Assembly: GCA_002343545.1 (NCBI GenBank)
Contig: DDRA01000021.1
Span: forward strand, 791-16,895
Length of the DNA stretch: 16,105 nt
Direction: 5' to 3'
Source of the DNA: Bacteriovoracaceae bacterium UBA2428
Lineage (GTDB): Bacteria; Bdellovibrionota; UBA2428
Shown here: in pieces, positions 1,938-15,075 of the stretch
Layout of the letters: every line of letters begins with the position of its first letter
How positions within the stretch are numbered: the first letter of the stretch is position 1
Position numbers and translations under genes: made by a program
The notes under the pieces: generated by a model
The model's database searches: none
What the model was told of the DNA's origin: nothing
Seen by the model: the letters and a program-made list of their open reading frames with translations, nothing else

Positions 1938-4900
1938 ATGAACCTCATTGATTTGTCCATCCGTCGACCCGTCTTCGCTTGGGTCCTCATGTTCACGTTC
2001 ATCAGCTTCGGGGCGATCTGCCTGAACCGGCTCGGCATCTCGCAGATGCCCGACGTCGACTTCCCGATCCTGAACATCTCGGTCAACTACGAAGGCGCCT
2101 CGCCCGAGGTCGTCGAGTCCGACATCATCGACCCCATCGAGCGCAACCTGCTCAACATCGAAGGCATCAAGGAAATGCGTTCGAGCGCGCGCCAGGGCTC
2201 GGGCTCCGTGCGTCTCGAGTTCGACATCCAACGCAACGTCGACGTGGCGCTGCAAGAAGTCCAATCGAACCTGAGCCAAGTCCGACTGCCCGAGGGCATC
2301 GACCCGCCCATCATCCGCAAACAGAACCCCGAAGAAGACCCCATCCTCCAGCTCTCGGTCTTCGGCGAGGCGCCCTTGCGCGAGATGCTCGTGTGGGCCG
2401 ACGGCTTCCTGCTCGACCAACTCCGCTTCCTGCCGGGCGTCGGCGAGGTGAGCGTCACGGGCTTCAGCGAGCGCAACCTGCGCGTCTGGTTCGACGTGAA
2501 GAAACTCAACGAGCTCGACCTCACGGTGAGCGACGTCATGAACGCGGTCCGGACCCAGCATCTCGAGAGCGCGGCCGGCCAGTTCACGGAAGGACGGCGC
2601 GAGCTGCGCGTCCGCTGGCTCGGCGAGGCGACCGAGGTCATGGATCTCGCGAAGATCCGCATCCTCAAGCGCGGCGGCCAGGACATCCACGACCGCGCCA
2701 TCTACGTGAGCGACGTCGCGCGCGTCGAGGACGGCCTCTCCGACATCCGCCGTCTCGCGCGGGTCGACGGCAAGGAAGCCATCTCGATCGGCGTGCGCAA
2801 GCAACGCGGCACGAACGAGGTCGACGTCGCCAAGTCCGTGCGCGCGAAACTCGAAGAGATCAAGGATCGCTTTCCGCCGGGCTACAACTACCGCGTCAAC
2901 GTGGACTTCACCCGCTCGACCGAAGCGACGGTGAACCTGACCCTCGAGAAGCTGGGCGCCGCCGCCATCATCACGATCATCATCTGCTTCCTCTTCCTGG
3001 GCAGCGTCTCGGCCGCGCTAAACATCCTCTTCTCGATTCCCGTCTCGATCGTGGGCACTTTCGTGATCCTCTATTTCTCGGGGTTCACGCTCAACCTCTT
3101 CACTTTGCTCGCGCTCACCCTCGCGATCTCGATCGTCGTGGACGACGCGATCATGCTCCTCGAGAACATCGTGCGCCACTACCGCATGGGCAAGCGGAGC
3201 GACCGCGCGTCCTCGGACGGCTCGAAGGAAGTCCTGCCGGCCGCCATCGCCGCCACCCTCGCCGTCATCGCCGTCTTCCTGCCGGTCGTCTTCATGGAAG
3301 GCGTCATCGGCAAGTTCTTCTTCCAGTTCGGCGTCACGATGAGCGCCGCCGTCCTCATCTCGCTCGTCGAGGCCATGACGATCACGCCGATGCGCGCGGC
3401 CGCCTTCCTGTCGAGCGAACCCAAGCCGAGCCGCCTCGAGCACAAGCTCGACGAGATCTTCGAGCGCTTCGCCGACGCCTACCGCCGCGTGCTCGTGGTA
3501 ACGCTCAAGTGGCGCTGGCCCGTACTCATCCTCTCGGGCGCTTTCTTTGCGGGATCGCTCGTGCTCGTGCGCGCCGTCAAGCAGGAGTTCGTGCCGGCCC
3601 AGGACCAGGACATCATCATCCTGAGCGCGCAAACCCCGCCGGGGTCCTCGCTCGAGTACACCGAGACGGTCTCGCGCGACCTCGAGGCCATCGTCAAGAC
3701 GAACGCGAACGTCGAGGGTTTCCTCGTCGCGATCGGCGGCGGTGGTCCCGGTGGCGGCGGCGTAAACTCGATCTTCCTGCCGATCGCGCTCAAACCCCGC
3801 AAAGATCGCAAGGTCACGCACCTCCAGGTCATGGACGAGCTGCGGCCCGCCTTCCGCCAACTCAAAGGCACGCGCGTGAACATGCGCGACATCTCGGCGC
3901 GAAATCTCGCCTCGGGCCGGCAGAACCCCGTCGCGATCAACCTGCGCGGCCCCGACCTGAAAGTCCTGGATGAAAAGAGCCAGGTGCTCATGGAACGACT
4001 CGAGAAGGAAGGCCTCGCGGTCGACCTCGACACGGATTACCGCGTCGGCATCCCCGAGCTCATCGTCGAACCCAAACGCGACGCCCTCGCCGCCCGCGGG
4101 GTCAGCGTGGAATCCGTGGGCCAAGTCCTCGCGGCCGCCGTTGGGGGCATCCGTCAGGGCCGCTACACTTCGGACGGCCGCCGCTACGATATCCGCTTCA
4201 AGGTCCCCGATTCCGACATGCGCTCGCCCGCCGCGATCCAGCGCCTCTTCGTGCGCAACGCCACGGGCAACCTCATCCCGCTCTCGGACGTCGTGAAGAT
4301 CACGGAAAAACCCGCCTCGCAGTCCATCACCCGGGTCAACCGCCAGCGGGCGATCTCGGTCTTCGGCAACCTCGCGGCCGACCAGTCGCAGTCCGCCGTG
4401 CTCGCGCGCGCCGAAGCCATCTCGAAGGAAATCCTGCCGACGGGTTACTCCTTCGCGCTCGAGGGCGCTTCGGCCGGCTTCGCGGAATCCTTCCGCAGTC
4501 TCGTGGGCGCGCTGCTCATCGGGATCCTCGTGGCCTACCTCATCCTGGCCGTGCAGTTCGATTCCTTCATCCACCCCGTTTCGGTCCTCGTGGCGCTGCC
4601 GTTCAGCGTGACGGGCGCGCTCATCGCGCTCTGGATCTTCGGCGCCTCCCTCAATCTCTTCAGCTTCATCGGGCTCATCGTCTTAATGGGGATCGCGAAG
4701 AAGAACTCGATTCTGCTCGTGGAGTTCACGAACCACGTGCGCGAGCAGGCGAAAGACAAGCCCGTTTGGGACGCCTTACTCGAAGCCTGCCCCGTGCGCC
4801 TTCGCCCCATCCTCATGACTTCGGTCGCGACCGTCGCGGCCGCGCTCCCCCTCGTCACGGGCGGCGGCATCGGCGCGGAGACGCGTTTGCCCATGGGACT

Positions 4901-5012
4901 TTCGATCGTCGGCGGCACGATCGTCTCGACGATCCTGACGCTCTTCGTGGTGCCGGCGCTCTACCTCGTGCTGTCGAAGCTCGAGCGCCCGCGCCGCCAC
5001 GCGGAGCTTTAA
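1938..5012 (+). CDS. RND-family (HAE1/AcrB-like) efflux permease
   Basis: This 1024-residue protein has the size and layout of proton-driven inner-membrane RND exporters. It has an N-terminal cytoplasmic and TM1 start (IRRPVFAWVL), a large periplasmic loop, a TM2-TM6 block, a second periplasmic loop and a C-terminal TM block. The proton-relay residues are present: the Asp pair D402-D403 in TM4 (VVDDAIMLLEN) and K922 in TM10 (IAKKNSILLVEF), corresponding to AcrB D407/D408/K940. A Gly-rich stretch lies in the second periplasmic loop near 3735-3760. RND pumps normally work with a periplasmic adaptor (MFP) and a TolC-like channel, but neither is next to it; ahpF is upstream and a blaI-like gene downstream. 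The substrate cannot be told from sequence. The start has no ribosome site, and the N-terminus aligns with the family. Confidence 0.93.
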   Translation: MNLIDLSIRRPVFAWVLMFTFISFGAICLNRLGISQMPDVDFPILNISVNYEGASPEVVESDIIDPIERNLLNIEGIKEMRSSARQGSGSVRLEFDIQRNVDVALQEVQSNLSQVRLPEGIDPPIIRKQNPEEDPILQLSVFGEAPLREMLVWADGFLLDQLRFLPGVGEVSVTGFSERNLRVWFDVKKLNELDLTVSDVMNAVRTQHLESAAGQFTEGRRELRVRWLGEATEVMDLAKIRILKRGGQDIHDRAIYVSDVARVEDGLSDIRRLARVDGKEAISIGVRKQRGTNEVDVAKSVRAKLEEIKDRFPPGYNYRVNVDFTRSTEATVNLTLEKLGAAAIITIIICFLFLGSVSAALNILFSIPVSIVGTFVILYFSGFTLNLFTLLALTLAISIVVDDAIMLLENIVRHYRMGKRSDRASSDGSKEVLPAAIAATLAVIAVFLPVVFMEGVIGKFFFQFGVTMSAAVLISLVEAMTITPMRAAAFLSSEPKPSRLEHKLDEIFERFADAYRRVLVVTLKWRWPVLILSGAFFAGSLVLVRAVKQEFVPAQDQDIIILSAQTPPGSSLEYTETVSRDLEAIVKTNANVEGFLVAIGGGGPGGGGVNSIFLPIALKPRKDRKVTHLQVMDELRPAFRQLKGTRVNMRDISARNLASGRQNPVAINLRGPDLKVLDEKSQVLMERLEKEGLAVDLDTDYRVGIPELIVEPKRDALAARGVSVESVGQVLAAAVGGIRQGRYTSDGRRYDIRFKVPDSDMRSPAAIQRLFVRNATGNLIPLSDVVKITEKPASQSITRVNRQRAISVFGNLAADQSQSAVLARAEAISKEILPTGYSFALEGASAGFAESFRSLVGALLIGILVAYLILAVQFDSFIHPVSVLVALPFSVTGALIALWIFGASLNLFSFIGLIVLMGIAKKNSILLVEFTNHVREQAKDKPVWDALLEACPVRLRPILMTSVATVAAALPLVTGGGIGAETRLPMGLSIVGGTIVSTILTLFVVPALYLVLSKLERPRRHAEL

Positions 5013-5054: not shown

Positions 5055-5068
5055 ACTAAGACCTTAGT
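5055..5068. promoter_or_regulatory. BlaI-type operator 1
   Basis: ACTAAGACCTTAGT is a perfect palindrome of two 6-base arms around AC. With the flanking T at 5054 it reads TACTA-N6-TAGT, resembling the TACTA/TAGTA outer arms known for BlaI/MecI operators. It overlaps one candidate -10 element and lies immediately upstream of the other promoter's -35. Confidence 0.75.
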
Positions 5069-5075
5069 TGATATC

Positions 5076-5091
5076 TACTACGACCTTAGTA
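5076..5091. promoter_or_regulatory. BlaI-type operator 2
   Basis: TACTACGACCTTAGTA has TACTA/TAGTA arms and shares 13 of 14 core bases with the first operator. The two centres are 22 bp apart, two helical turns, so two repressor dimers would bind the same face of the DNA. It ends 11 bases before the repressor start codon. Confidence 0.75.
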
Positions 5092-5102
5092 ACAATGAAC
5101 CC

Positions 5103-5483
5103 ATGCACGATGAGAAGCTCCTGACCGACACCGAACTCGAAATGATGCGGGTCCTCTGGGCCAAGGGGGAAGGAAACGTGAACGAGGTGCTCGCCGAGCT
5201 GCGCGCCGAACGCGACCTCGCCTACACCTCGGTCAGCACGATCCTGCGCATCCTCGAATCGAAAGGTTTTCTGCGAAGCCGTAAGGACGGTCGTGCGCAC
5301 GTCTACCGCCCCACCCTCGCGAAGTCGGACTACGAAGCGCGCACGCTTCGTCACGTCGTGCACCACGTCTTCGACGGCGAAAGCGTGAGTCTCGTCCGGC
5401 AACTCTTGGGCTCGGGCCAGGTTCGCGCCGAAGAACTCGCCGAGCTGCGTAAGCTCTTGGACGAAAGCGAATCCTCGTCGTGA
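5103..5483 (+). CDS. blaI: BlaI/MecI-family transcriptional repressor
   Basis: At 126 residues this is the normal size of BlaI/MecI/CopY repressors. It has an N-terminal winged helix (LTDTELEMMRVLWAKGEG, then a recognition helix in TSVSTILRILESKGFL and a wing SRKDGRAHVYRP) and a C-terminal dimerisation part (HHVFDGESVSLVRQLL), the region cut by the cognate protease in staphylococcal BlaI. It binds palindromes in its own promoter, and two such sites lie just upstream. Its stop overlaps the start of the M56 protease gene by four bases (GTGA), the usual blaI-blaR arrangement. No beta-lactamase is adjacent. It therefore probably controls its own operon and unknown distant genes. Confidence 0.92.
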   Translation: MHDEKLLTDTELEMMRVLWAKGEGNVNEVLAELRAERDLAYTSVSTILRILESKGFLRSRKDGRAHVYRPTLAKSDYEARTLRHVVHHVFDGESVSLVRQLLGSGQVRAEELAELRKLLDESESSS

Positions 5484-7060
5484 CGGACGCCTTGCTCCTC
5501 TACGCGCGAGTCGGGATGGCCCTGTTCGTCGCGGGTGCGGCCGGGGTCGCCCTGGAACGCCTTTTCGCGCGCGACGCGATCGCGCGACCGCACGCGCGAC
5601 TGAAGTTGCACGCTTGGCTGTTCATCGGGACGATCGCGGCCCCCTTCCTTCGTCTTGAGACGCCCGAGAACTTTCGCTTCGAGGCGCCCCTGAAAGTCTG
5701 GGCCGCCGCCGGTCCCCACGCCGAAGCCTGGCACGCGGATCGCGTCCCCACCCTCGGCGCTCCCCTCGTGGCGGAGGGAAGCTGGCCCGTCGCGTGGCCC
5801 GCCCTCCTGCTCGGCTCCCTGCTCGCGATTTCCTTCACGCTTTGGGCCCGCAAGATTCGATCGCTCCGGCGGCTCGCGCGCGACGCGTATCGACTCCGAC
5901 GCGTCGGTCGCGTCGAGATTCTCGTCTCGGATCGCGTCGACGGCCCCCTTTCTTTTCGACTCCCGGGCCGCGCCATCGTCGTCCTGCCCGACTGGATCCT
6001 CGAGCGCGCGGAGCAACGGCGCATCGCCGTGCTCCACGAGCTCCAACATCACCGCGCCGGCGACACGCTCGTCGCGCACGGCCTCGCCCTTCTTCGGGCC
6101 TTCTACTTTTGGAATCCCTTTCTCCCGTCGTGGGAACGGGGAATCCAAGAGCTGCAGGAATACGCGTGCGACGGGGCCCTGATCGGCCGACGGAAAGTCT
6201 CGCCGCGCGCCTACGGCCGCTGCCTCTTGGCGGTGGCGCAACGTCCCTTCGAGCGCCCCCGGAGCCTGGTCGGTACCCCCGGCTTCGCGTGGCGTCTCTC
6301 GAAGGGACACCTCAAAAGGAGAATTGAGATCATGATTTCCGTGAAAGATTTGAAACCCGGTATCGGCCGCCGTACGCTCCTCGGATTCTTTGCCTTCGCG
6401 ATCGGGGGCTTCGGAGTCGCCGCGTGGGCGTCGCAAAACGTCATCAAGGACGCGCGGCTGAGCCTCGCGGACGCGCGCAAGCTCGCCGAAGGAGGCACCC
6501 GCGAAGGCGGCGTGCCGCTCTTCGTGAACGAGGCCGTGCTCGAGCAGCTCAACCGTTACGTGGCCACGCCCGCGGGCCGCGATTTCGTGCGCGAATCGAT
6601 CGCGCGACTCGAAACGATGCGGCCGACGCTCGAAGGAAAGGCCCGCCAGCATTCCGCGCCCGTGGAACTGCTCGCCATCCCGCTGGTGGAATCCGGTTAC
6701 CAGAATCTGCCCGCCGCGAGGAACCCCCAAGGTTCCGCCGGCGTTTGGCAGTTCATCCGGTCGACGGCGCGTCGCTACGGGATGAAGGTCGAAGGGAAAG
6801 TCGACGAGCGTCTCGACCTCGAGAAAGCCACGGACGCCGCCCTTCGATACGTGCTCGGCTCCAATCTCACCTTCCAAGATTGGTGGCTCGCGATCCTGAG
6901 TTACAACGCGGGCGCGCAAAATGTGCAACGACGCATCGAAGCCGCGGGAACCCGCGATGCCTTCGCGCTCGTCGCCTCGAAGGGCCTTGGCGATCCGAAT
7001 TACTTGCCTAAGGTGATGGCCGCCATGCTCATCCTGCGGCACCCGCAGCTCGTTCGCTAG
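5480..7060 (+). CDS. BlaR1-like M56 membrane metalloprotease fused to a lytic transglycosylase (SLT) domain
   Basis: 526 residues, GTG start overlapping the blaI stop (GTGA). The N-terminal half is an M56 antirepressor protease. It has membrane segments at about residues 4-26, 46-60 and 105-125, the zinc motif H186-E-L-Q-H190 (VLHELQHHRAGD) and the downstream ligand region E227-Y-A-C-D. A fourth membrane segment (about 298-317, GFFAFAIGGFGVAAW) leads to the C-terminal part. This is an SLT/MltD-like transglycosylase fold: catalytic Glu about residue 404 in PLVESGYQ, then SAGVWQFI, ERLDLEKATDAALRY and AILSYNAGAQNV. By BlaR1 topology, the protease would face the cytoplasm, to cut BlaI, and the SLT domain would face the periplasm, on peptidoglycan. 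BlaR1 and MecR1 carry a penicillin-binding domain there instead. Probably a cell-wall sensor-transducer; enzymatic activity is possible because the Glu is intact. Domain calls are by eye. Confidence 0.9.
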   Translation: MTDALLLYARVGMALFVAGAAGVALERLFARDAIARPHARLKLHAWLFIGTIAAPFLRLETPENFRFEAPLKVWAAAGPHAEAWHADRVPTLGAPLVAEGSWPVAWPALLLGSLLAISFTLWARKIRSLRRLARDAYRLRRVGRVEILVSDRVDGPLSFRLPGRAIVVLPDWILERAEQRRIAVLHELQHHRAGDTLVAHGLALLRAFYFWNPFLPSWERGIQELQEYACDGALIGRRKVSPRAYGRCLLAVAQRPFERPRSLVGTPGFAWRLSKGHLKRRIEIMISVKDLKPGIGRRTLLGFFAFAIGGFGVAAWASQNVIKDARLSLADARKLAEGGTREGGVPLFVNEAVLEQLNRYVATPAGRDFVRESIARLETMRPTLEGKARQHSAPVELLAIPLVESGYQNLPAARNPQGSAGVWQFIRSTARRYGMKVEGKVDERLDLEKATDAALRYVLGSNLTFQDWWLAILSYNAGAQNVQRRIEAAGTRDAFALVASKGLGDPNYLPKVMAAMLILRHPQLVR

Positions 7061-7234: not shown

Positions 7235-7825
7235 GTGGCCAAGCGAAACGCACAATTGGATGCATTCGCGGACTTCAAGCGCCGCCTTCGCACGGGATTC
7301 GGTGGCGAGAGAACTCGTCGGTCTAACCCCACCGGGGCCCGACCCTTTTCTCCGCGCCTACCCGTACACGTCATCCTAAAATCGAGTCTCGCTCGGGGCG
7401 AAAGATCTCTGTTTTTGCGCGGACGCGCGATTGACCGAATTTTGAAAGAGGAAGTCGATCGCCAGGGCGGCAGACTCTTTGATGGATCGAATTCCGGCAA
7501 CCACCTGCACTTACTCGTGCAGTTCCGACGTCCCGAGGCATTGAGGTCTTTCCTACGCGCCATCGCGGGCCGTATCGCGCGCCTCGTTCTAGGAGCCAAA
7601 AAAGGAACTCGGATTCTGAAAAACGGCCAGCGATTCTGGGACGCCCGACCTTGGTCGCGGCTCGTCGGCTGGGGGCGCGATTTCGCGAACGTGCGTCGTT
7701 ACGCCCTCGTCAATGCACACGAACGCCTGGGGCTTTCGCGGGCTCACTCGCGCGAGATGATCCGCGAACTCGAGCATATCGGAATGGCCTGTTTTAGCGG
7801 CGGAGCCCCACCGCTCAAAGCCTGA
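7235..7825 (+). CDS. REP-associated tyrosine transposase (RAYT) / IS200-like HUH protein
   Basis: 196 residues. The core matches the Y1 HUH-endonuclease family used by IS200/IS605 elements and by domesticated RAYTs. A first strand reads PVHVILKSSLARG, the metal-binding pair H90-L-H92 sits in SGNHLHLLVQF, an FWDARPWSR segment follows, and Y156 in RRYALVNAHERLG is the probable catalytic tyrosine. The Arg/Lys-rich N-terminus is basic. The GTG is the first in-frame start after a stop (TAA, 7223-7225), and no better start exists. There is no tnpB or matching pair of element ends, so this looks like a single RAYT-type gene rather than a complete insertion sequence. It is convergent with the CPBP gene. 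Confidence 0.82.
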   Translation: MAKRNAQLDAFADFKRRLRTGFGGERTRRSNPTGARPFSPRLPVHVILKSSLARGERSLFLRGRAIDRILKEEVDRQGGRLFDGSNSGNHLHLLVQFRRPEALRSFLRAIAGRIARLVLGAKKGTRILKNGQRFWDARPWSRLVGWGRDFANVRRYALVNAHERLGLSRAHSREMIRELEHIGMACFSGGAPPLKA

Positions 7826-8731: not shown

Positions 8732-8747
8732 CATGACGGCCGTCATG
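8732..8747. promoter_or_regulatory. FNR-like box upstream of the cbb3 operon
   Basis: CATGACGGCCGTCATG is a perfect 16-bp palindrome. Its TGAC-N4-GTCA core has the spacing of the FNR box (TTGAT-N4-ATCAA). Its centre (8739.5) lies 34.5 bases before the end of a -10-like TATCTT (8769-8774). That predicts a start near 8781 and a class II activator position of -41.5. Confidence 0.82.
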
Positions 8748-8768
8748 TTGGCGTCGACGGAAGCCGCC

Positions 8769-8774
8769 TATCTT
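8769..8774 (+). promoter_or_regulatory. -10 element of the cytochrome c/cbb3 operon
   Basis: TATCTT matches 4 of 6 bases of TATAAT. No -35 is seen because the FNR-like box occupies that region, as expected at class II activated promoters. An AGGAGG ribosome site follows at 8784-8789, nine bases before the ATG at 8799. Confidence 0.6.
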
Positions 8775-8798
8775 GGGACGCTCAGGAGGCCCATCCGA

Positions 8799-9629
8799 AT
8801 GCGTCAATATTTTGGTCCCGCGTTCTGGCTCGGCGTCGCGACGGGGGTCGCCCTCAAAGCGAGCGCCGCGCCCGAGTCCATCGCGACGCTCATGAACCGA
8901 CAGCAGCAAGTCCGAGCGGGAAGGGAATCTTTCGTGCGGAACTGCATCGGCTGCCACGGCACGAACGCCGACGGCCAAGGCCCCGCGGCCGCGTTCCTCT
9001 CGCCCAAGCCGCGCAACCTCGTCGAAGGAAGCTTCAAGTTCCGCTCGACGCCCGCCGGAAGCCTCCCGACCGAAGAAGACCTCCTGCGCACGATCGAACA
9101 GGGCGTCCCGCGCAGCTCGATGCCGCCCTTCCGCGCGCTCCCCCATCCCGAGAAACGCGCGCTCGTGGCCTACCTCCAAAGCCTGCGCCCCGACTGGAGC
9201 GAGATGAAGGGAGCGAGCTACGCGATCCCCGACCCGCCGCCCGACATTTTCGCGAAGAAGGAGACCCTTCTCGCTTCGGCCGCGCGCGGTTACGTCGTGT
9301 ACAAGGAAGCCTGCCTCACCTGCCACGGCGAGCGTGGCCTTGGCGACGGCGAAGGTTCCGTGGGGCTCGTCGACGGCGAAGGGCAGACGCTCTTGCCCGC
9401 GAACTTCACGCGCCGAAATCTCAAGAGCGGCCCGACGCCGAAAGACGTCTACCGGACGATCCTGACCGGACTCGACGGCACGCCGATGCCGGGCTTCGCC
9501 GACGTCTACTCGGACGCCCAACGCTGGGATCTCGTCGCGTACGTCCTCGTCCGTCGCGGCCAAGGCGCGGGTCTCTATCCCGCCGACCTCGACCTGAGCT
9601 TCGCCAACCCCACGGCCAAAACCCGCTAA
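8799..9629 (+). CDS. Periplasmic di-heme cytochrome c, probable CcoP-like subunit or donor of the cbb3 oxidase
   Basis: 276 residues from the ATG at 8799, chosen because AGGAGG precedes it and a signal peptide follows immediately (MRQYFGPAFWLGVATGVALK, then cleavage near ASA-A). An in-frame ATG at 8733 lies inside the regulatory palindrome and upstream of the -10, so it is not the start. Two cytochrome c domains each bind one heme: C49-I-G-C-H53 with a Met in SSMPPF, and C172-L-T-C-H176 with a Met in GTPMPGF. It heads the operon, 16 bases before ccoN, where a CcoP-type electron-input subunit is expected. However, it lacks CcoP's own membrane anchor. It may instead be a soluble donor. Confidence 0.88.
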   Translation: MRQYFGPAFWLGVATGVALKASAAPESIATLMNRQQQVRAGRESFVRNCIGCHGTNADGQGPAAAFLSPKPRNLVEGSFKFRSTPAGSLPTEEDLLRTIEQGVPRSSMPPFRALPHPEKRALVAYLQSLRPDWSEMKGASYAIPDPPPDIFAKKETLLASAARGYVVYKEACLTCHGERGLGDGEGSVGLVDGEGQTLLPANFTRRNLKSGPTPKDVYRTILTGLDGTPMPGFADVYSDAQRWDLVAYVLVRRGQGAGLYPADLDLSFANPTAKTR

Positions 9630-9645
9630 CCCGAACGAGGACATC

Positions 9646-11064
9646 ATGGAAGTCGCCCAAGCGCCCTCCCCATCCCCGACCGATAACCAGCCAGTCGATC
9701 ACGCCCTCGTCACGGCCTACTTCGTGGCCTTCCTTGGCTACCTGATCGTCACGCTGCTCGCGGGACTCAGCTACTCGCTGCAGTTCCTTCAGAAGTACCC
9801 CTTTCCCGGCGTCGAGCTTCTTTCGCCCGGGCGCGTCCGCATGGTCCATACGATGTCGGTCGCCTACGGCATGCTCGCGAGCGGGCTCTTCGGCATCGTG
9901 TCCTACATCGTGCCCAAGCTCACCGGCTTCCCCGTGCTCTCGCGCAAGCTCGCCTGGTGGCTCTACGGGATCTACAACGCGGCCGTACTCGCGACGGTCG
10001 CGATGATCCTTGGCGGCCACGCGCAGGGCCTCGAATGGGCGGAAACCCCGAAGATCCTCGACCCCTTCATCGCGCTCACCGTCGTCGGCATCGTCGTGAA
10101 CAACATCACGCCGATCTGGCGCGCGCGCGCCGAACCCTACTACGTGAGTCTCTGGTACATCCTCGCCGCTCTCATCTGGACCCCGCTCGTCTACGTCTTC
10201 GGGAACTTCCTCCCGGAGTACGTCTTCGGCGGCACGGCCGGCGCCGCGATCTCCTCGATGTACATCCATGATCTCGTGGGCCTCTTCGTGACGCCGCTGG
10301 GGATCGCCTCGGTCTACTACCTGCTGCCCGTGGCGATGCGCGTGCCGCTCTACAGCCACGCCCTCTCGATCATCGGCTTCTGGGGCCTCGCGTTTTTCTA
10401 TCCGCTCAACAGCGCGCACCACTACCTTTACTCGCCGATCCCGATGTGGGCCCAGTACGCGAGCATCGTCGCGTCGATCGGCGTGCACGTCGTCGTGTAC
10501 ACGGTCGTCTTCAATATCTTCGCGACCCTAGCCTCGGACTGGAAGCAACTCGTCACCAACTTCCCCGTCCGCTGGATCTTCATGGGTACGCTCGCCTACC
10601 TCATCACGTGCATCCAATGCGCGGTGCAGGTTACGCTCGCGGCGCAGGAAATCATCCACTTCACCGATTGGGTCGTGGGCCACGCGCACTTCGTGCTTTT
10701 CGGGACCTTTACTTTCTGGATCACGGCCTGGGTCTACTGGCTGCTCCCCCGTATCTGGGGCACGCCGATCTACTCGCTCAGCCTCGGACGATGGCACTTC
10801 TGGCTCGCGACGCTCGGCATCTGCATCATGCAGATCGACCTGCTCGCGGCGGGCGTCATGCAAGGTTACCTTTGGAAGTCGCTCGCGCCCTTCATCGACA
10901 GCGTGCGCGCCTCGATGCCCTTCTGGTGGACGCGGACCTTCTCGGGAATCCTCATCCTCGTGGGCGAGTCCTGCTTCATCCTGAACATCTACCTGACTTG
11001 GCAGGCCTCGCGTGAACGCCGGGCCGCGGCCGCCAACTTGCAACCGAGCGGAGCGACGTCGTGA
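9646..11064 (+). CDS. ccoN: cbb3-type cytochrome c oxidase catalytic subunit I
   Basis: 472 residues with about 12 membrane helices, the heme-copper subunit that reduces O2 with high affinity and pumps protons. The ligands are all present at positions very close to those of characterised CcoN: H68 (RMVHTMS) and H348 for low-spin heme b, H346 for heme b3 (TDWVVGHAHF), H208 (MYIHDLVG) and H258-H259 (PLNSAHHYLY) for CuB, and Y252 (FFYP) as the probable His-cross-linked tyrosine. The helix with the CuB His reads YIHD where CcoN usually has YGHN, a small deviation. GAGG precedes the ATG. Its stop overlaps the GTG of ccoO by four bases. NorB was considered, but the neighbouring CcoO settles it. Confidence 0.94.
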   Translation: MEVAQAPSPSPTDNQPVDHALVTAYFVAFLGYLIVTLLAGLSYSLQFLQKYPFPGVELLSPGRVRMVHTMSVAYGMLASGLFGIVSYIVPKLTGFPVLSRKLAWWLYGIYNAAVLATVAMILGGHAQGLEWAETPKILDPFIALTVVGIVVNNITPIWRARAEPYYVSLWYILAALIWTPLVYVFGNFLPEYVFGGTAGAAISSMYIHDLVGLFVTPLGIASVYYLLPVAMRVPLYSHALSIIGFWGLAFFYPLNSAHHYLYSPIPMWAQYASIVASIGVHVVVYTVVFNIFATLASDWKQLVTNFPVRWIFMGTLAYLITCIQCAVQVTLAAQEIIHFTDWVVGHAHFVLFGTFTFWITAWVYWLLPRIWGTPIYSLSLGRWHFWLATLGICIMQIDLLAAGVMQGYLWKSLAPFIDSVRASMPFWWTRTFSGILILVGESCFILNIYLTWQASRERRAAAANLQPSGATS

Positions 11065-11654
11065 AGATCATCGAGAAGTTCAGCGGAGTTTTTCTCATCG
11101 CGGGGCTCTTCCTGCTGCTGGGCGCGATGCTCTCGCTCGGGATCGTGCCCGCCATGATGGTCGACCGCGTGCATCCGCAGCAGGGCTTGCCGCTGGAAGT
11201 TCCCGAGGACCAGCGTATCCACTACGCCTCCGCAAAGGAGTACCAGGCGGCGCTGCTCCTGGGTCGCGATATCTACGTGGCCGAAGGCTGCTGGCACTGC
11301 CACAGCCAGTACGTCCGCCCCGTCGCGAACGAGAACTTGCAGTACGGCCCCGTCTCGACGCCCGGCGAGTACCAGACCGCTTTGCACCGCCCGCAGCTGC
11401 TCGGCACCCGCCGCGTCGGCCCGGACTTGAGCCGCGAGGCGGGCAAGAAGAGTGACGATTGGCACTACGCCCATCTCTACGACCCACGCTTCACCGTGCC
11501 GGACTCAGTCATGCCGGGATACCCTTGGCTTTTCGAGCGAAACGCCGATGGCCAAATACTACCGGGCCCGAAGGCGAAGGCCCTCGTCGCCTACCTCCAG
11601 AACCTCGGTCGCGGGATGGAGACCGACGTCGGCGACCTGCCGCCTCGGGAGTGA
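11061..11654 (+). CDS. ccoO: cbb3-type cytochrome c oxidase mono-heme subunit II
   Basis: 197 residues, GTG start in a GTGA overlap with ccoN. One N-terminal membrane anchor (about residues 8-30) is followed by a periplasmic mono-heme cytochrome c domain. The heme site is C77-W-H-C-H81 in the CcoO signature CWHCHSQYVRPV, followed by GTRRVGPDL and DDWHYAHLYDPR, with the axial Met in DSVMPGYPWLF. It carries electrons from the c-type cytochromes to CcoN. Length and motifs are normal for the family. Confidence 0.95.
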   Translation: MKIIEKFSGVFLIAGLFLLLGAMLSLGIVPAMMVDRVHPQQGLPLEVPEDQRIHYASAKEYQAALLLGRDIYVAEGCWHCHSQYVRPVANENLQYGPVSTPGEYQTALHRPQLLGTRRVGPDLSREAGKKSDDWHYAHLYDPRFTVPDSVMPGYPWLFERNADGQILPGPKAKALVAYLQNLGRGMETDVGDLPPRE

Positions 11655-11663
11655 GGAGCGAAG

Positions 11664-11930
11664 ATGCCGAACCCCGTTAACAAGCCCGTGAATCGCAGGA
11701 TCGGCTGGACCGCGCTCGGATTAGGCGGCGCCCTCGTGATGCTCGCTTTCCTCGCGGGCCGGGAGTGGGGAATTGGCGCGCAGATCGCCGCGATGGCCTA
11801 CGCCGTGCTCGTGACGATCTTCCTGCTCGCGCAGATCGCGGGTTTCATCTGGACGCAAACCCACTACGTCGAGTCCGTCGAGAACACGAAGCTTCGCGTG
11901 CTCGAAGCCGAAGCGGAGGACCCGCGATGA
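11664..11930 (+). CDS. Small two-TM membrane protein of the cbb3 operon
   Basis: 88 residues, preceded by GAGGAG. Two hydrophobic segments (about 14-32 and 38-62) are followed by a charged C-terminal tail (VESVENTKLRVLEAEAEDPR). I do not recognise a family. Its place directly after ccoO and its size recall CcoQ-type accessory subunits, but it has two segments rather than one. Its stop overlaps the next start (ATGA). Confidence 0.75.
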   Translation: MPNPVNKPVNRRIGWTALGLGGALVMLAFLAGREWGIGAQIAAMAYAVLVTIFLLAQIAGFIWTQTHYVESVENTKLRVLEAEAEDPR

Positions 11931-12139
11931 GGGCGGCGCGCGACGACGGACGGATCTGGCTTCCCTGTCTCGTGTGCGGCGTGGACTCCGGCCCCGTCCT
12001 GACCTTTTTCTTTTGGATCGTGGGCTGCGGCGTGCTCGGCTTCATCGCGCTCGGAGTGTGGGCTTATCTCACGGGCAAGCTCCGCCCCTCCGCGGCCGCG
12101 AAGCGTCCCTTGCAAGTCGAAGCGAACGAAGAATACTAA
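11927..12139 (+). CDS. Small one-TM protein with CxxC motif
   Basis: 70 residues, starting at an ATG that overlaps the previous stop (ATGA). The N-terminus has C14-L-V-C17-G, followed by one hydrophobic segment (about 23-47) that contains a further Cys (C33) and a polar tail ending NEEY. The cysteine pair just before the membrane segment could bind a metal such as copper or zinc, or be a redox site; that is inference. No CcoS or CcoQ signature is seen. Probably translated with its neighbour and tied to oxidase assembly or stability. Confidence 0.7.
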   Translation: MRAARDDGRIWLPCLVCGVDSGPVLTFFFWIVGCGVLGFIALGVWAYLTGKLRPSAAAKRPLQVEANEEY

Positions 12140-12158
12140 GCACGAAGGAGATCACGCT

Positions 12159-12299
12159 TTGGAAACGGACGAACTCAAGTACCGCGGATCGAAGATCCCC
12201 CGCATCCTGCGTTTCGCCTGGACGATCTTCGCGATCTTTATGCTCGTTTATCTCGCGCGCTATATGTGGCCCGACCTGAAGGAGTGGATGGCGAAATGA
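12159..12299 (+). CDS. 46-residue membrane peptide resembling the CcoP N-terminal anchor (FixP_N)
   Basis: TTG start with AAGGAG (12145-12150) eight bases upstream, and a stop that overlaps the next gene's ATG. The product has a charged start (ETDELKYRGSKIPRIL), one membrane helix (FAWTIFAIFMLVYLARY) and a short WPDLKEWMAK tail. The order of acidic start, Y-x-G/N-x-x-IPR, aromatic-rich helix and YxxPDL resembles the FixP_N anchor found at the N-terminus of CcoP. Here no cytochrome domain follows. It may be the missing membrane part of the di-heme cytochrome made at 8799. The similarity is judged by eye. Confidence 0.68.
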   Translation: METDELKYRGSKIPRILRFAWTIFAIFMLVYLARYMWPDLKEWMAK

Positions 12300-13255
12300 A
12301 GCCGACGCGGGACCTCGAGGACCCGCTTCCTTTCGGGGAAGAGGGTTCCGAGTTCCGACGCCGGCGGGCCGGCCTCAGTTTTTTGTTTTTCGCGGGCCTT
12401 TACTCGAGCGTGCACCGCCTTTGGATTCCGCTCGGACTCCAACTCACGACGCTCGCCGGCTCTCCCTACGCTCGACCGGATCCCCGTTTCTTGCCCGCGC
12501 TTTGGGTCGCCTGGCGCCTACGACGCGTCGAAAGTCGCTTCGGCCCGATCGAGGCCTTCCTCCTCGGGGGCGGGCTCGGCTGGGCCGCGTGGGAGAGCTT
12601 CCAGATCGCGACGGGCGTACACACGGGTTGGCTGGGACTGAGCCACGCCGTCTCGGCCTTGCCCATCGGCATCGCGTCGGTCGCCGTCTACTTGCAGCGA
12701 GCCCCTTCCGCGCGAAAGACGTTGCTTCCGTTTTGGGTGGGCGCCCTCGTCGCGGCCGGGCTGTCCTACGCGGTCGACTCCGGACGCTCGCTTCCCGCGC
12801 CGACGGAGCGCGAAGCGGTCGCGCCCCTTCCCCTTCCGTCCCAGGCGCCGAGCGCGGCCGTTGCGTGCGGCGCCACCCAACTCACGGCCGAAGCCTCGAC
12901 GAAACTCGAGACCTCGGGCGCGCTCGAAATCTTGGATTGCGGGATCCGCCCCGCCCTTCTCGCGGCGCCGCCCGACGGCCGCCTCCGCCTGCGCAACCGG
13001 GGGGTCGTCGCGATGAACCTTCGACTCGTGCTCGTCGGCCGCGACGGCGCCGAGCGAAGCGGCTGGAATCTTCTCTTGGCGCCCGGACGCGAGCTGCTCT
13101 CGCCGCCGCTGCGCTGGCGCGAAGGCGAGATCGCCCGCGTCCATTCGGACAACCGGGCCGAAGCGGGCCTCGCCCTCGTCTTCCCCGTTTCGACGGTCAC
13201 GGGCCGCTGGCACGCGGCCCGGCATCCCCTGCGCACGGAATGGAGAAGCCCGTGA
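12296..13255 (+). CDS. Membrane protein of unknown function with periplasmic beta-rich C-terminal domain
   Basis: 319 residues, ATG overlapping the previous stop (ATGA). The N-terminal half has about four hydrophobic segments (roughly 27-50, 86-106, 114-132, 142-160). A Pro/Ala-rich linker (163-187) leads to a C-terminal domain of about 130 residues rich in short beta strands (RLRLRNRGVVAMNLRLVLVG). That domain could be cupredoxin-like, but the copper-binding His/Cys/Met set is not seen. Two cysteines (C191, C215) could form a disulfide. I do not recognise a family. It sits in the middle of the cbb3 operon, which suggests a role in oxidase assembly or an accessory subunit. Confidence 0.75.
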   Translation: MKPTRDLEDPLPFGEEGSEFRRRRAGLSFLFFAGLYSSVHRLWIPLGLQLTTLAGSPYARPDPRFLPALWVAWRLRRVESRFGPIEAFLLGGGLGWAAWESFQIATGVHTGWLGLSHAVSALPIGIASVAVYLQRAPSARKTLLPFWVGALVAAGLSYAVDSGRSLPAPTEREAVAPLPLPSQAPSAAVACGATQLTAEASTKLETSGALEILDCGIRPALLAAPPDGRLRLRNRGVVAMNLRLVLVGRDGAERSGWNLLLAPGRELLSPPLRWREGEIARVHSDNRAEAGLALVFPVSTVTGRWHAARHPLRTEWRSP

Positions 13256-13353
13256 GCTTCGACGACTACCTGCACCTGCTCGAGTTTTTCCTGGTGGGTG
13301 GCATCGGCTTCGTCGTGGCGTGGGTCGTCCGTCGTACCCGGAGAAAATCGTGA
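13252..13353 (+). CDS. 33-residue single-TM peptide (CcoQ-like size)
   Basis: GTG start in a GTGA overlap with the preceding stop, with GGAG six bases upstream. The product has an acidic N-terminus (SFDDYLHLLE), one membrane helix (FFLVGGIGFVVAWVV) and a basic end (RRTRRKS), giving N-out/C-in by the positive-inside rule. An in-frame ATG at 13240 would add four residues but has no ribosome site. Too short for most gene finders. Its reality rests on overlaps at both ends and a clean helix. It may be a CcoQ-like or other small oxidase subunit. Confidence 0.6.
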   Translation: MSFDDYLHLLEFFLVGGIGFVVAWVVRRTRRKS

Positions 13354-13709
13354 GCGAGCCCATGCTTCGCATCGAGCCGGGCCCGACGCGACCGCTCGGC
13401 ATGCCGGTCTACTTCGTGAGCGAGCGCGACGAGACGCCGGCCACACTGCGCGTGCGGAGTCCGCGCGGGGAAAAAGCCACGCTCGCCTGGACGCGCGAGG
13501 AAGGCGCGTGGAAGGCCGAGTTCGTCGCCTACGAGGCGGGGGACTACGCCTTTGAAACGACGGGCCACGACTACGTCATCCATTATCGAGACGAGGGGCG
13601 CCTGCCCTTCCTCGGGGAGTTCGGGGCCACCGCGACGGTCGTCGCCCTGGCCTTCGCGATCGGGTTCGCCGTCCGCACGCAAAAACGAAGAAAGGGGAAT
13701 CCGGCATGA
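13350..13709 (+). CDS. Beta-rich (FixH/YtkA-like?) domain with C-terminal membrane anchor
   Basis: 119 residues from a GTG in a GTGA overlap; an ATG at 13362 is an alternative. Residues 5-85 look like an Ig/YtkA-type beta sandwich (MPVYFVSERDETPATLRVRS, then EGAWKAEFVAYEAGDYAFET), the fold of the FixH/CcoH family's periplasmic part. One membrane helix (about 90-108) and a basic tail (RTQKRRKGNPA) follow. FixH has its helix at the N-terminus. Here the order is reversed and no signal peptide is visible, so export of the domain would need an N-out tail. Function inferred from context: oxidase assembly or copper handling. Confidence 0.72.
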   Translation: MSEPMLRIEPGPTRPLGMPVYFVSERDETPATLRVRSPRGEKATLAWTREEGAWKAEFVAYEAGDYAFETTGHDYVIHYRDEGRLPFLGEFGATATVVALAFAIGFAVRTQKRRKGNPA

Positions 13710-13990
13710 CGAAGGATCGTTTTTGGGGAAGCGTCCACCTGTCGCTTTGGGCGCTGCTCATCCTCGCGGGGATCGTGGCGAAACGAAGCTTCGGCCACCC
13801 GGACTGGATGGTGTTCTTTCACCTGCCCGCCGCGGTCTTTCTCGTGCTCGGTTTCTACCGTCTTTCCGCCCCTTTCCGCCTCGAACGAGAGCGAGAAATC
13901 CGACGCCTCGCACAAGAATCGGCTAAGTCCGAAAATCTACCCCCGAAACATGACGGCCGACATACTCCGGCGGCCGTCACCGGCCGATAA
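13706..13990 (+). CDS. Small two-TM membrane protein, last gene of the cbb3 run
   Basis: 94 residues, ATG in an ATGA overlap with the preceding stop. Two hydrophobic segments (about 8-25 and 34-51) are joined by a short KRSFGHPD loop. A highly charged cytoplasmic-type tail follows (FRLEREREIRRLAQESAK). No family recognised. The last 15 codons contain the FNR-like box of the following HiPIP gene, so coding and regulatory sequence overlap here. Confidence 0.72.
   Translation: MTKDRFWGSVHLSLWALLILAGIVAKRSFGHPDWMVFFHLPAAVFLVLGFYRLSAPFRLEREREIRRLAQESAKSENLPPKHDGRHTPAAVTGR
13949..13964. promoter_or_regulatory. FNR-like box upstream of the HiPIP gene
   Basis: CATGACGGCCGACATA differs from the perfect box at 8732 by one core base and the last flank base. 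Its centre (13956.5) lies 34.5 bases before the end of the -10-like GATAAT (13986-13991), exactly the spacing at the cbb3 promoter, and again predicts a -41.5 position for a start near 13998. A degenerate second copy (10 of 12 bases on the minus strand) lies at 13968-13979. Confidence 0.75.
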
Positions 13991-13991
13991 T
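13986..13991 (+). promoter_or_regulatory. -10 element of the HiPIP gene
   Basis: GATAAT matches 5 of 6 bases of the consensus. It overlaps the stop codon of the preceding gene. The predicted start near 13998 leaves a 23-base leader with AAGGAG at 14007-14012 before the ATG at 14021. Confidence 0.6.
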
Positions 13992-14020
13992 AGGCGCATA
14001 CCCTAGAAGGAGTTCGGAAC

Positions 14021-14380
14021 ATGAAACTGAACCGTCGTGAATTCATCGCCTCCTCGTTCTTCGGCGTCGTGGCGGCCACCCTCATCGGCAAGGCCGCGTG
14101 GATGGGCCAGGCCCTCGCCGCGTCGTTTCGTGCGCCGGCCCCGAAGGATGCCGCCGATCCCACGAAGCCCGGTCCGGCCAAAGCGATGAAGTACGTGCAC
14201 CACGTCGCCGAGTACAAAGGCCCCCCCAAGAAGGCCGGCGCGAAATGCCTGAACTGCCTGCAGTTCAAGCCCGCCAAGGCCGGTGAGCCTTGGGGCAAAT
14301 GCGCGATGGTCGGCAACAAGCAGGTCTACGAAGACGGCATGTGCCAAGTCTGGGCCGCGAACCCCAAGGTCCCGATCTAG
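14021..14380 (+). CDS. High-potential iron-sulfur protein (HiPIP), Tat-exported
   Basis: 119 residues with a twin-arginine signal (NRREFIASSFFG, hydrophobic core, AxA near ALAAS). The mature part has the HiPIP cysteine pattern C76-x2-C79-x14-C94-x13-C108 that binds one [4Fe-4S] cluster, ending in MCQVWA. HiPIPs are folded in the cytoplasm, exported by Tat and shuttle single electrons in the periplasm, often to terminal oxidases. Its own FNR-like box and its position behind the cbb3 operon point to the role of electron donor to that oxidase. The start is fixed by AAGGAG. Its TAG overlaps the convergent fnr stop in a shared CTAG. Confidence 0.94.
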   Translation: MKLNRREFIASSFFGVVAATLIGKAAWMGQALAASFRAPAPKDAADPTKPGPAKAMKYVHHVAEYKGPPKKAGAKCLNCLQFKPAKAGEPWGKCAMVGNKQVYEDGMCQVWAANPKVPI

Positions 14381-15075
14381 AGCGAGAGATTCGCTTTCGC
14401 GACGAGGGCGTCGCGGTCGAGGATCTCGATCCGGCGTCCTTGCAGCGCGACGATGTCTTGGTCGGCGAAGTCCGCGAGCGTGCGCATGACGGTCTCGGGC
14501 GTCGTGCCCGCCCAGTCCGCGATCTCCTTGCGCGTCCACGTCTGGTCGGCGAAGTTCTGCTTGAGGAAGAGCAAGGCCTCGGCGATGCGCTCGGCCGCGT
14601 TCTTATCGGCCATCCCGCAGAGGCGATCCTCGGCGTGCCGCAACTCCTTCGACACGTACGCGAGAAACTTGAGCCCGACGGCGGGGAACTTGGCCAAGAG
14701 TTCGCTCACCGCGGGCTTCGGGATTTGGCAAACCTGGGAGTCTTCGTGCACGACCGCCGAGGCCTCGTAAGCCTCGTTCGCGAAGAGCGAGCGGTAACCC
14801 AAGATGCCGCCCGACTGGACGACGCGCAGGATGTGATTGTTCCCCGTACTGCCCGAGGCCTCGAGGCGAATGACGCCAGAGTTCACGCAGTACAATCCGC
14901 TCGGCAAGCTGCCCGTATGAAAGATCGCCTGCCCACGCTTGTAGTGGTTCACGATCTTGTGGCGGTCGAGCAGATCAAGCGCCTCGTCGGGCAAATCGCA
15001 GAAAACGTTCTTCGGGCGACTCTCGCAGTTCCGGCAATCGCTGGATCGCTTGATCGAAAAAACCGCCATATTCAT
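14377..15075 (-). CDS. fnr: FNR-type (Crp/Fnr family) transcriptional regulator
   Basis: 232 residues: a cyclic-nucleotide-type beta barrel, a dimer helix and a C-terminal helix-turn-helix. Cysteines C14, C17 and C26 (DCRNCESRPKNVFCDLP) together with C116 in DSQVCQIPK correspond to the four ligands of the FNR oxygen-sensing [4Fe-4S] cluster. The last lies in the same VCxIP context as E. coli C122. C14-x2-C17 is as in FNR, but the gap to the third cysteine is 8 rather than 5 residues. The recognition helix reads TTPETVMRTL: the Glu and Arg that read the TGA core in FNR are kept (E194, R198), and Met replaces Ser. It is the obvious candidate to bind the TGACGGCCGTCA boxes. Weak ribosome site; M1 or M3 may be the start. 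Probably co-transcribed with the CBS gene 56 bases upstream. Confidence 0.9.
   Translation of the reverse strand: MNMAVFSIKRSSDCRNCESRPKNVFCDLPDEALDLLDRHKIVNHYKRGQAIFHTGSLPSGLYCVNSGVIRLEASGSTGNNHILRVVQSGGILGYRSLFANEAYEASAVVHEDSQVCQIPKPAVSELLAKFPAVGLKFLAYVSKELRHAEDRLCGMADKNAAERIAEALLFLKQNFADQTWTRKEIADWAGTTPETVMRTLADFADQDIVALQGRRIEILDRDALVAKANLSL

Follow-up and report, generated by a model that had tools for sequence, protein, structure and literature searches.

A putative BlaR1-like envelope switch with a lytic transglycosylase as its outer domain in Bdellovibrionota

A stretch of 16,105 nucleotides from Bacteriovoracaceae bacterium UBA2428 (Bdellovibrionota; GenBank assembly GCA_002343545.1, contig DDRA01000021.1, positions 791 to 16,895 of the forward strand), here called the window, carries a two-gene operon composed of a blaI-type repressor gene and an open reading frame (ORF) in which a BlaR1-type M56 protease is joined to a lytic transglycosylase domain (SLT). 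What does a signalling protease sense, and what does it control, when its outer domain is a wall-cutting enzyme? We lean towards a BlaR1-like envelope switch that regulates itself and whose transglycosylase serves as sensor and output alike. Such a self-regulated receptor may have its sensor and its response in one protein.

The M56-SLT ORF (5480..7060; like all features of the operon, on the forward strand) encodes 526 amino acids from a GTG start without an internal stop. In Pfam, Peptidase_M56 matches residues 111-283 (5810..6328) with 60.1 bits against a cut-off of 31, and SLT matches residues 387-494 with 73.3 bits against 21.3. The structure model contains helices read as the transmembrane helices TM1 (residues 3-32, 5486..5575), TM2 (37-56, 5588..5647), TM3 with an extension (105-135, 5792..5884) and TM4 (293-320, 6356..6439), followed by an MltD-like fold (340-526, 6497..7057). 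The zinc motif HELQH lies at residues 186-190 (6035..6049), and EYACD, with the third zinc ligand E227 and D231, at residues 227-231 (6158..6172). The four-helix membrane scaffold with the gluzincin motifs HExxH and ExxxD is that of BlaR1/MecR1-type M56 proteins. The C-terminal domain has the SLT fold, the catalytic Glu (E404, 6689..6691) and the GxWQF and YNxG motifs of lytic transglycosylase family 1 (MltD-like), here as SAGVWQF (419-425) and AILSYNAG (471-478). The penicillin-binding domain PF00905 gave no match in the window fusion up to an E-value of 0.1, SLT being in its place, and Pfam LysM gave no match either. The fusion scores 32.6 bits with the NCBIfam model blaR1_generic (NF000326), far under the curated cut-off of 400 bits, and 66.4 bits, over residues 350-521 only, with the MltD equivalog NF008050, under its cut-off of 508 bits. 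The earlier note on this DNA, made from the sequence alone, had read M56 and SLT in one protein, a BlaR1-like anatomy with an MltD-like C-terminal domain, and an intact SLT Glu, SLT motifs, HELQH and EYACD. The profile matches and the structure model agree with it, and all these motifs were located in the window protein and are conserved in relatives.

Residue conservation was counted in 219 aligned fusions (the window's, 180 from search hits and 38 from genomes), which form 217 clusters at 95%; identical copies had been taken out beforehand, as had P0001, the record of the window protein. E404 is Glu in 219/219, and the other SLT motifs are largely kept. On the protease side, H186, E187, H190, D195, E227, D231, Y245 and R281 are each kept in 217 or 218 rows (H186, H190 and R281 in 217; E187, E227 and D231 in 218). 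The exceptions are the split-gene row of genome G212, which lacks the region, and P0067 and P0120, each with one His of the zinc motif changed. R281 (6320..6322) aligns with Arg294 of BlaR1; by the alignment, the eight protease positions match residues that are named in the BlaR1 structure paper (PMC9834060). These near-invariant residues indicate that the protease and the transglycosylase residues are both under strict constraint.

The fusion is widely distributed. In a protein search with the window fusion, the best 120 of 203 proteins all carry M56 and SLT. A search from a Sulfidibacter member (best 120 of 206) adds fusions from Acidobacteriota (by record name Sulfidibacter corallicola and Acanthopleuribacter pedis) and from Myxococcota (by record name Archangium gephyra, Myxococcus stipitatus and one further Myxococcus). 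Of the 368 genomes surveyed in the phylum, at least 47, among them the window's own, have a match in one frame that reaches both halves, and these are spread over many families. The number is a lower bound, since it covers the best three candidates of each genome and leaves out weak rows; G212, whose halves fall in different frames, is not among the 47. A frameshift between the halves, by which the earlier note would have been refuted, is therefore not borne out by the relatives, and a frameshift or chimaera was rejected. A mobile origin was also rejected: 62 plasmid records match the protein, none over more than 80% of it, and the ten listed cover 29-34%. A search for related loci in genome contigs gave one fusion locus and one SLT-only match. 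Loci were fetched for 46 of the 47 fusion genomes (all but G223). In 43 of the 46, the ORF immediately before the fusion is blaI, most commonly with the 4-nt overlap seen in the window; in the other three (L079, L081, L090) the fusion reaches a contig end or ends within 56 bases of one. The locus of G212 (L082 7773-9418) has the fusion halves in two frames, by a break or an assembly error, and retains blaI and operators.

The repressor gene (5103..5483) encodes 126 amino acids and matches Penicillinase_R (PF03965) with 108.1 bits (gathering cut-off 22.6). Upstream of it are operator 1, ACTAAGACCTTAGT (5055..5068), and operator 2, ACTACGACCTTAGT (5077..5090), 22 bp from the first. The two operators straddle the predicted promoter of the operon: the predicted -35 box, TTGATA (5068..5073), starts with the last base of operator 1, and the predicted -10 box, AACAAT (5091..5096), a 4/6 match to TATAAT, directly follows operator 2. 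With at most one mismatch, TACNACNTTAGT has three matches in the window against 0.07 expected; the third, at 10138, is away from the operon. As the earlier note had described, twin operators, a BlaI-type repressor and an overlapping M56 gene are all present.

The operators were compared in 42 SLT-type loci (the window and the fetched loci L038-L095 with blaI; L082 in, L030 and L035 out), and upstream sequence was present in 41 of them. Two copies of ACTAAnnnnTTAGT scoring at least 17/20 were found in 40/41, the exception being L048, with a spacing of 22 bp in 33 loci and 21 or 23 bp in seven. In a first control, a score of at least 17 was reached by 13 of 1060 random stretches, which were taken as overlapping true operators; when the control was repeated on the same loci with the operator region excluded, the maximum score was 16 in 1306 stretches. 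The survey for M56-SLT fusions beside blaI found the arrangement conserved. The promoter prediction is less uniform. At least four of six bases of TTGACA are found at the -35 position in 35/41 loci, which is partly forced by the operator, and at least four of six of TATAAT at the -10 position in only 15/41, which leaves the prediction weak on its own. The relative L050 has TTGACA-17-TATAAT at the same positions. The predicted -10 box is very near the blaI ATG at 5103 (window 5091-5110), so that the transcript may be nearly leaderless.

Which genes does this repressor control? Across 20 fusion genomes, 36 exact copies of AACTAAnnnnTTAGTT were counted (on one strand), 32 before the operon and four elsewhere, while its reversed control pattern occurs 22 times; the window's genome and G062 are the two without an exact copy. 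The four off-operon sites, two in G188 and two in G270, are all within ORFs. With one mismatch allowed, AACTAAnnnnTTAGTTG occurs 82 times and its control 118 times. The tandem pattern, at three mismatches or fewer, occurs 22 times against 12 for the control: 18 times before the M56-SLT operon, three times before an operon of blaI and an M56-transpeptidase gene, and once elsewhere, in G062, where no ORF of at least 90 amino acids starts within 400 nt. This pattern fails to pick up the fusion operons of G320 and G062, where the spacing is 23, and the transpeptidase operon of the window's genome, whose operators contain ACTAG, is also outside its reach. Among ORFs of at least 90 amino acids within 3 kb, no downstream family recurs in more than four loci, and the only recurring upstream ORFs are blaI (51 loci) and ORFs antisense to it (eight loci). 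No beta-lactamase or other conserved target gene was seen in the 20-genome operator scans and the neighbour survey, and imperfect single sites are indistinguishable from chance. A larger BlaI regulon was set aside as improbable in these genomes, given the lack of excess over the reversed pattern and the position of the four exact off-operon sites inside ORFs.

With no operator excess elsewhere and no conserved downstream gene, the sole visible output is BlaI and M56-SLT. The plain reading of these sequences is that the operon seems to regulate itself, with no separate target gene visible. If the operon is its own sole target, the SLT domain is probably an output as well as a sensor. The alternative is a pure receptor, in which SLT merely binds wall glycans or muropeptides and its catalytic activity plays no part, while weak or single operators place further genes elsewhere, for the wall or for resistance, under BlaI. 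Classical BlaR1, as described in PMC9834060, detects its drug when the sensor domain is acylated, and the genes it induces, blaZ and mecA, are separate ones; in G188, an exact site is found near the start of a MurD-like ORF. Against a pure receptor stand the invariant E404 with its accompanying motifs, the operator counts of the 20 genomes, the location of the four exact off-operon sites within ORFs and the lack of a conserved neighbour, and we consider it unlikely.

A second operon in the same genome offers a comparison. At L057 9214-11657 (contig C35), blaI (9214-9609) is followed by a gene for a 683-residue M56 protein with a C-terminal PF00905 transpeptidase domain (128.1 bits), and the paired operators are of the ACTAG type. 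Twelve such penicillin-binding protein (PBP)-type loci, four assigned by Pfam and the others classed by a low score with the fusion profile, were compared with the 42 SLT-type loci. Residue 45 of BlaI is Ser in 42/42 SLT-type and Ala in 12/12 PBP-type loci, and residue 49 is Arg in 42/42 and Lys in 12/12; the window repressor has the SLT-type recognition helix (S45, R49). In the SLT type, the left operator flank is A in 39/40 (operator 1) and 31/40 (operator 2), and the right flank is T in 40/40 and 39/40. In the PBP type, the left flank is T and the right flank is A in 11/11; locus L088 is under the score cut. Judged from these sequences, the differences in recognition helix and operator flank look as if two parallel circuits were insulated from each other. 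As the rows share descent, a single event may underlie the fixed differences. The target restricted to the operon itself and the parallel blaI-M56-transpeptidase operon go beyond the interpretation in the earlier note.

That note had also stated that the penicillin-binding sensor is replaced by the SLT domain. This fits as a comparison between paralogues, but the order of the two forms is not settled by the M56 tree, which is unrooted (66 rows; PBP loci L091 and L093 were left out as short). Its 13 PBP rows are split off together by a branch with support of 98/93. The 52 SLT rows do not form a single side, and 30 of the 62 forks are left open. As the root is not fixed, no claim is made on the direction of domain exchange. 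Placed among the SLT rows is P0184, in which M56 is joined to an M23 (LytM) peptidase (63 bits at 344-436), with HxxxD and HxH recognised by eye. It is conceivable, though rather doubtful, that these proteins belong to a class of autogenous wall-enzyme receptors, in which the M56 scaffold bears one of three wall enzymes (transpeptidase, lytic transglycosylase or LytM endopeptidase), every form has a BlaI of its own with orthogonal operators, and the wall enzyme would be the sensor and the sole induced product. If this is true, wall-cutting or wall-building capacity would be titrated by its own substrate against the state of the wall.

SLT-only relatives without M56 were also found. L055 8784-9476 (minus strand; G105, a one-contig genome) and L136 785-1432 (minus strand; G207) have starts that resemble signal peptides by eye. 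No M56 or blaI match was found within about 3 kb upstream of L055; L136 adjoins an ORF that is VanY-like by eye. A third SLT-only ORF, L135, runs off its contig and is uninformative. As sequences, these relatives weakly suggest that the SLT module works as an enzyme.

How would the switch work? At rest, BlaI would keep its own operon repressed, and the little M56-SLT present would sample the wall. Accessible glycan strands, or an inhibitor such as bulgecin, would fill the SLT cleft; such strands could be uncrosslinked strands in wall stress, in growth, or when a predator meets a foreign wall. The first outer loop (EL1) would then shift against the start of the SLT domain and free the cytoplasmic protease, which would cut BlaI, derepress the operon and yield more membrane-anchored transglycosylase. 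BlaI re-made from the same transcript would reset the switch. The earlier note had likewise proposed that binding or cleavage of glycan would trigger signalling through the membrane and cleavage of the repressor. In BlaR1, according to PMC9834060, the drug displaces the first outer loop from its place in the sensor cleft. In the fusions, EL1 carries the motif P-x-K-V-W (residues 70-74, 5687..5701, from the alignment and the models), with P70 in 182/219 and W74 in 175/219, and V-x-D-x-R is found in the linker that follows the fourth helix, with D324 in 195/219 and R326 in 172/219. Both models contain short strands here, at 71-73 and 322-324 in the window protein and at 74-77 and 330-332 in P0025. 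From the models we infer that the EL1 and linker strands pair, which would couple the loop to the SLT domain.

Two other mechanisms would use the same parts. The protease might control the enzyme: autocleavage by M56, or a signal peptidase, would free or degrade SLT, and BlaI would just set the dosage. BlaR1 is described in the available part of PMC9834060 as cutting itself spontaneously and as having a signal-peptidase site before its sensor, and free-standing SLT relatives with signal-peptide-like starts exist; however, the repressor and the operators are nearly always kept, which points to signalling to DNA, and this mechanism is very unlikely. Less probable still, SLT might make anhydromuropeptides that, once imported and processed, act as BlaI ligands, with the protease secondary. 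In the Bacillus licheniformis work (PMC3305447), a dipeptide of peptidoglycan acts as a ligand of BlaI/MecI and makes the complex with DNA less stable. This would leave both enzymes in one polypeptide and the strict conservation of the protease residues unexplained.

Several points weigh against the self-regulated switch that we prefer. SLT activity, the ligand, BlaI cleavage and induction are all predictions from sequence or model. The outer-loop coupling is drawn from two short strands in two models, to which DSSP assigns no partners. The available part of PMC9834060 places the BlaI cut in Staphylococcus at Asn101-Phe102 and calls that Phe almost invariant. In an ungapped alignment with MecI, the pair aligns with Gln100-Leu101 of the window BlaI, and among the 42 SLT-type repressors position 100 has Gln in 26 cases and Arg in 11, and position 101 has Leu in 40 and Phe in two. 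The Asn-Phe pair is thus not kept (Gln/Arg-Leu), though the prime side remains bulky and hydrophobic. Position 271 of the fusion, aligned with Phe284 of BlaR1, is bulky hydrophobic in only 140/219. The operator flanks of the window are atypical for the SLT class, with T at the left of operator 1 and A at the right of operator 2, each the lone exception of 40. The fusion is patchy; in its own family it was found in one of four genomes, with none among the matches listed for the other three. The window's genome (G000) is 74% complete, and weak or single operators at further genes are possible. The G188 site (L138 434-449) is 74 nt inside the ORF judged MurD-like by eye and is possibly functional; by count it is at chance level, though the gene is one of wall synthesis.

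Paired palindromic operators are also found in the BlaR1-BlaI and MecR1-MecI systems of Staphylococcus and Bacillus. Those systems further share with the fusion operon the helix order, the M56 gluzincin motifs HExxH...ExxxD, the equivalents of the Tyr and Arg, a C-terminal outer domain and a BlaI-type repressor, but the outer domain of the fusion is an MltD-like lytic transglycosylase instead of a penicillin-binding domain, and its operator is ACTAAnnnnTTAGT. The blaI-M56-transpeptidase operons of the phylum have the same M56 scaffold, operon order and 22-bp paired operators; they differ in the C-terminal PF00905, in operator flanks of T/A instead of A/T, and in A45/K49 instead of S45/R49 in BlaI. 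MltD of Pseudomonas aeruginosa (8rhe/8rhf/8rhi) has the same catalytic fold, Glu and motif order, whereas 8rhf is described with two LysM domains and the window fusion has a membrane protease in addition to its lack of a LysM match. P0184, a single example, shares the M56 scaffold and a wall hydrolase at the C-terminus, which is an endopeptidase and not SLT. The same architecture is present under the NCBI record name "M56 and MltD domain-containing protein", a name only, in Bdellovibrionota, Sulfidibacter, Acanthopleuribacter, Archangium and Myxococcus. Because this name exists, the fusion itself is not a discovery. No study of an M56-SLT fusion was found in the literature searched (titles and abstract starts, with subscription papers mostly outside), consistent with the earlier note, to which no characterised M56-SLT sensor was known. 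The operon is a real, conserved variant of the BlaR1/BlaI kind, and its new points are the tandem operators, the apparently self-only output and the paired paralogue.

In the rest of the window, an RND (AcrB-type) transporter gene (1938-5012, forward strand) ends 90 bp before the blaI start. This upstream pump gene was rejected as a target: the operators lie after its stop and before blaI, and the neighbour is not recurrent. Downstream, a 196-amino-acid ORF (7235-7825, forward strand) resembles a REP-associated transposase by eye and has no Pfam match at 0.001. A cbb3-type oxidase cluster (8733-15075) with matches to cytochrome c, COX1 and FixO follows, and beyond it the opposite strand encodes a Crp/Fnr-type regulator.

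Little is settled about how bacteria gauge the condition of their wall. In this operon, a conserved two-gene unit with no other target seen, a wall-cutting enzyme is coupled to a transcriptional repressor. The lineages with the fusion include predators of other bacteria. The operon would be a compact system for asking whether the substrate occupancy of a hydrolase signals across the membrane, and it offers two matched, apparently insulated pairs of BlaI and operator.
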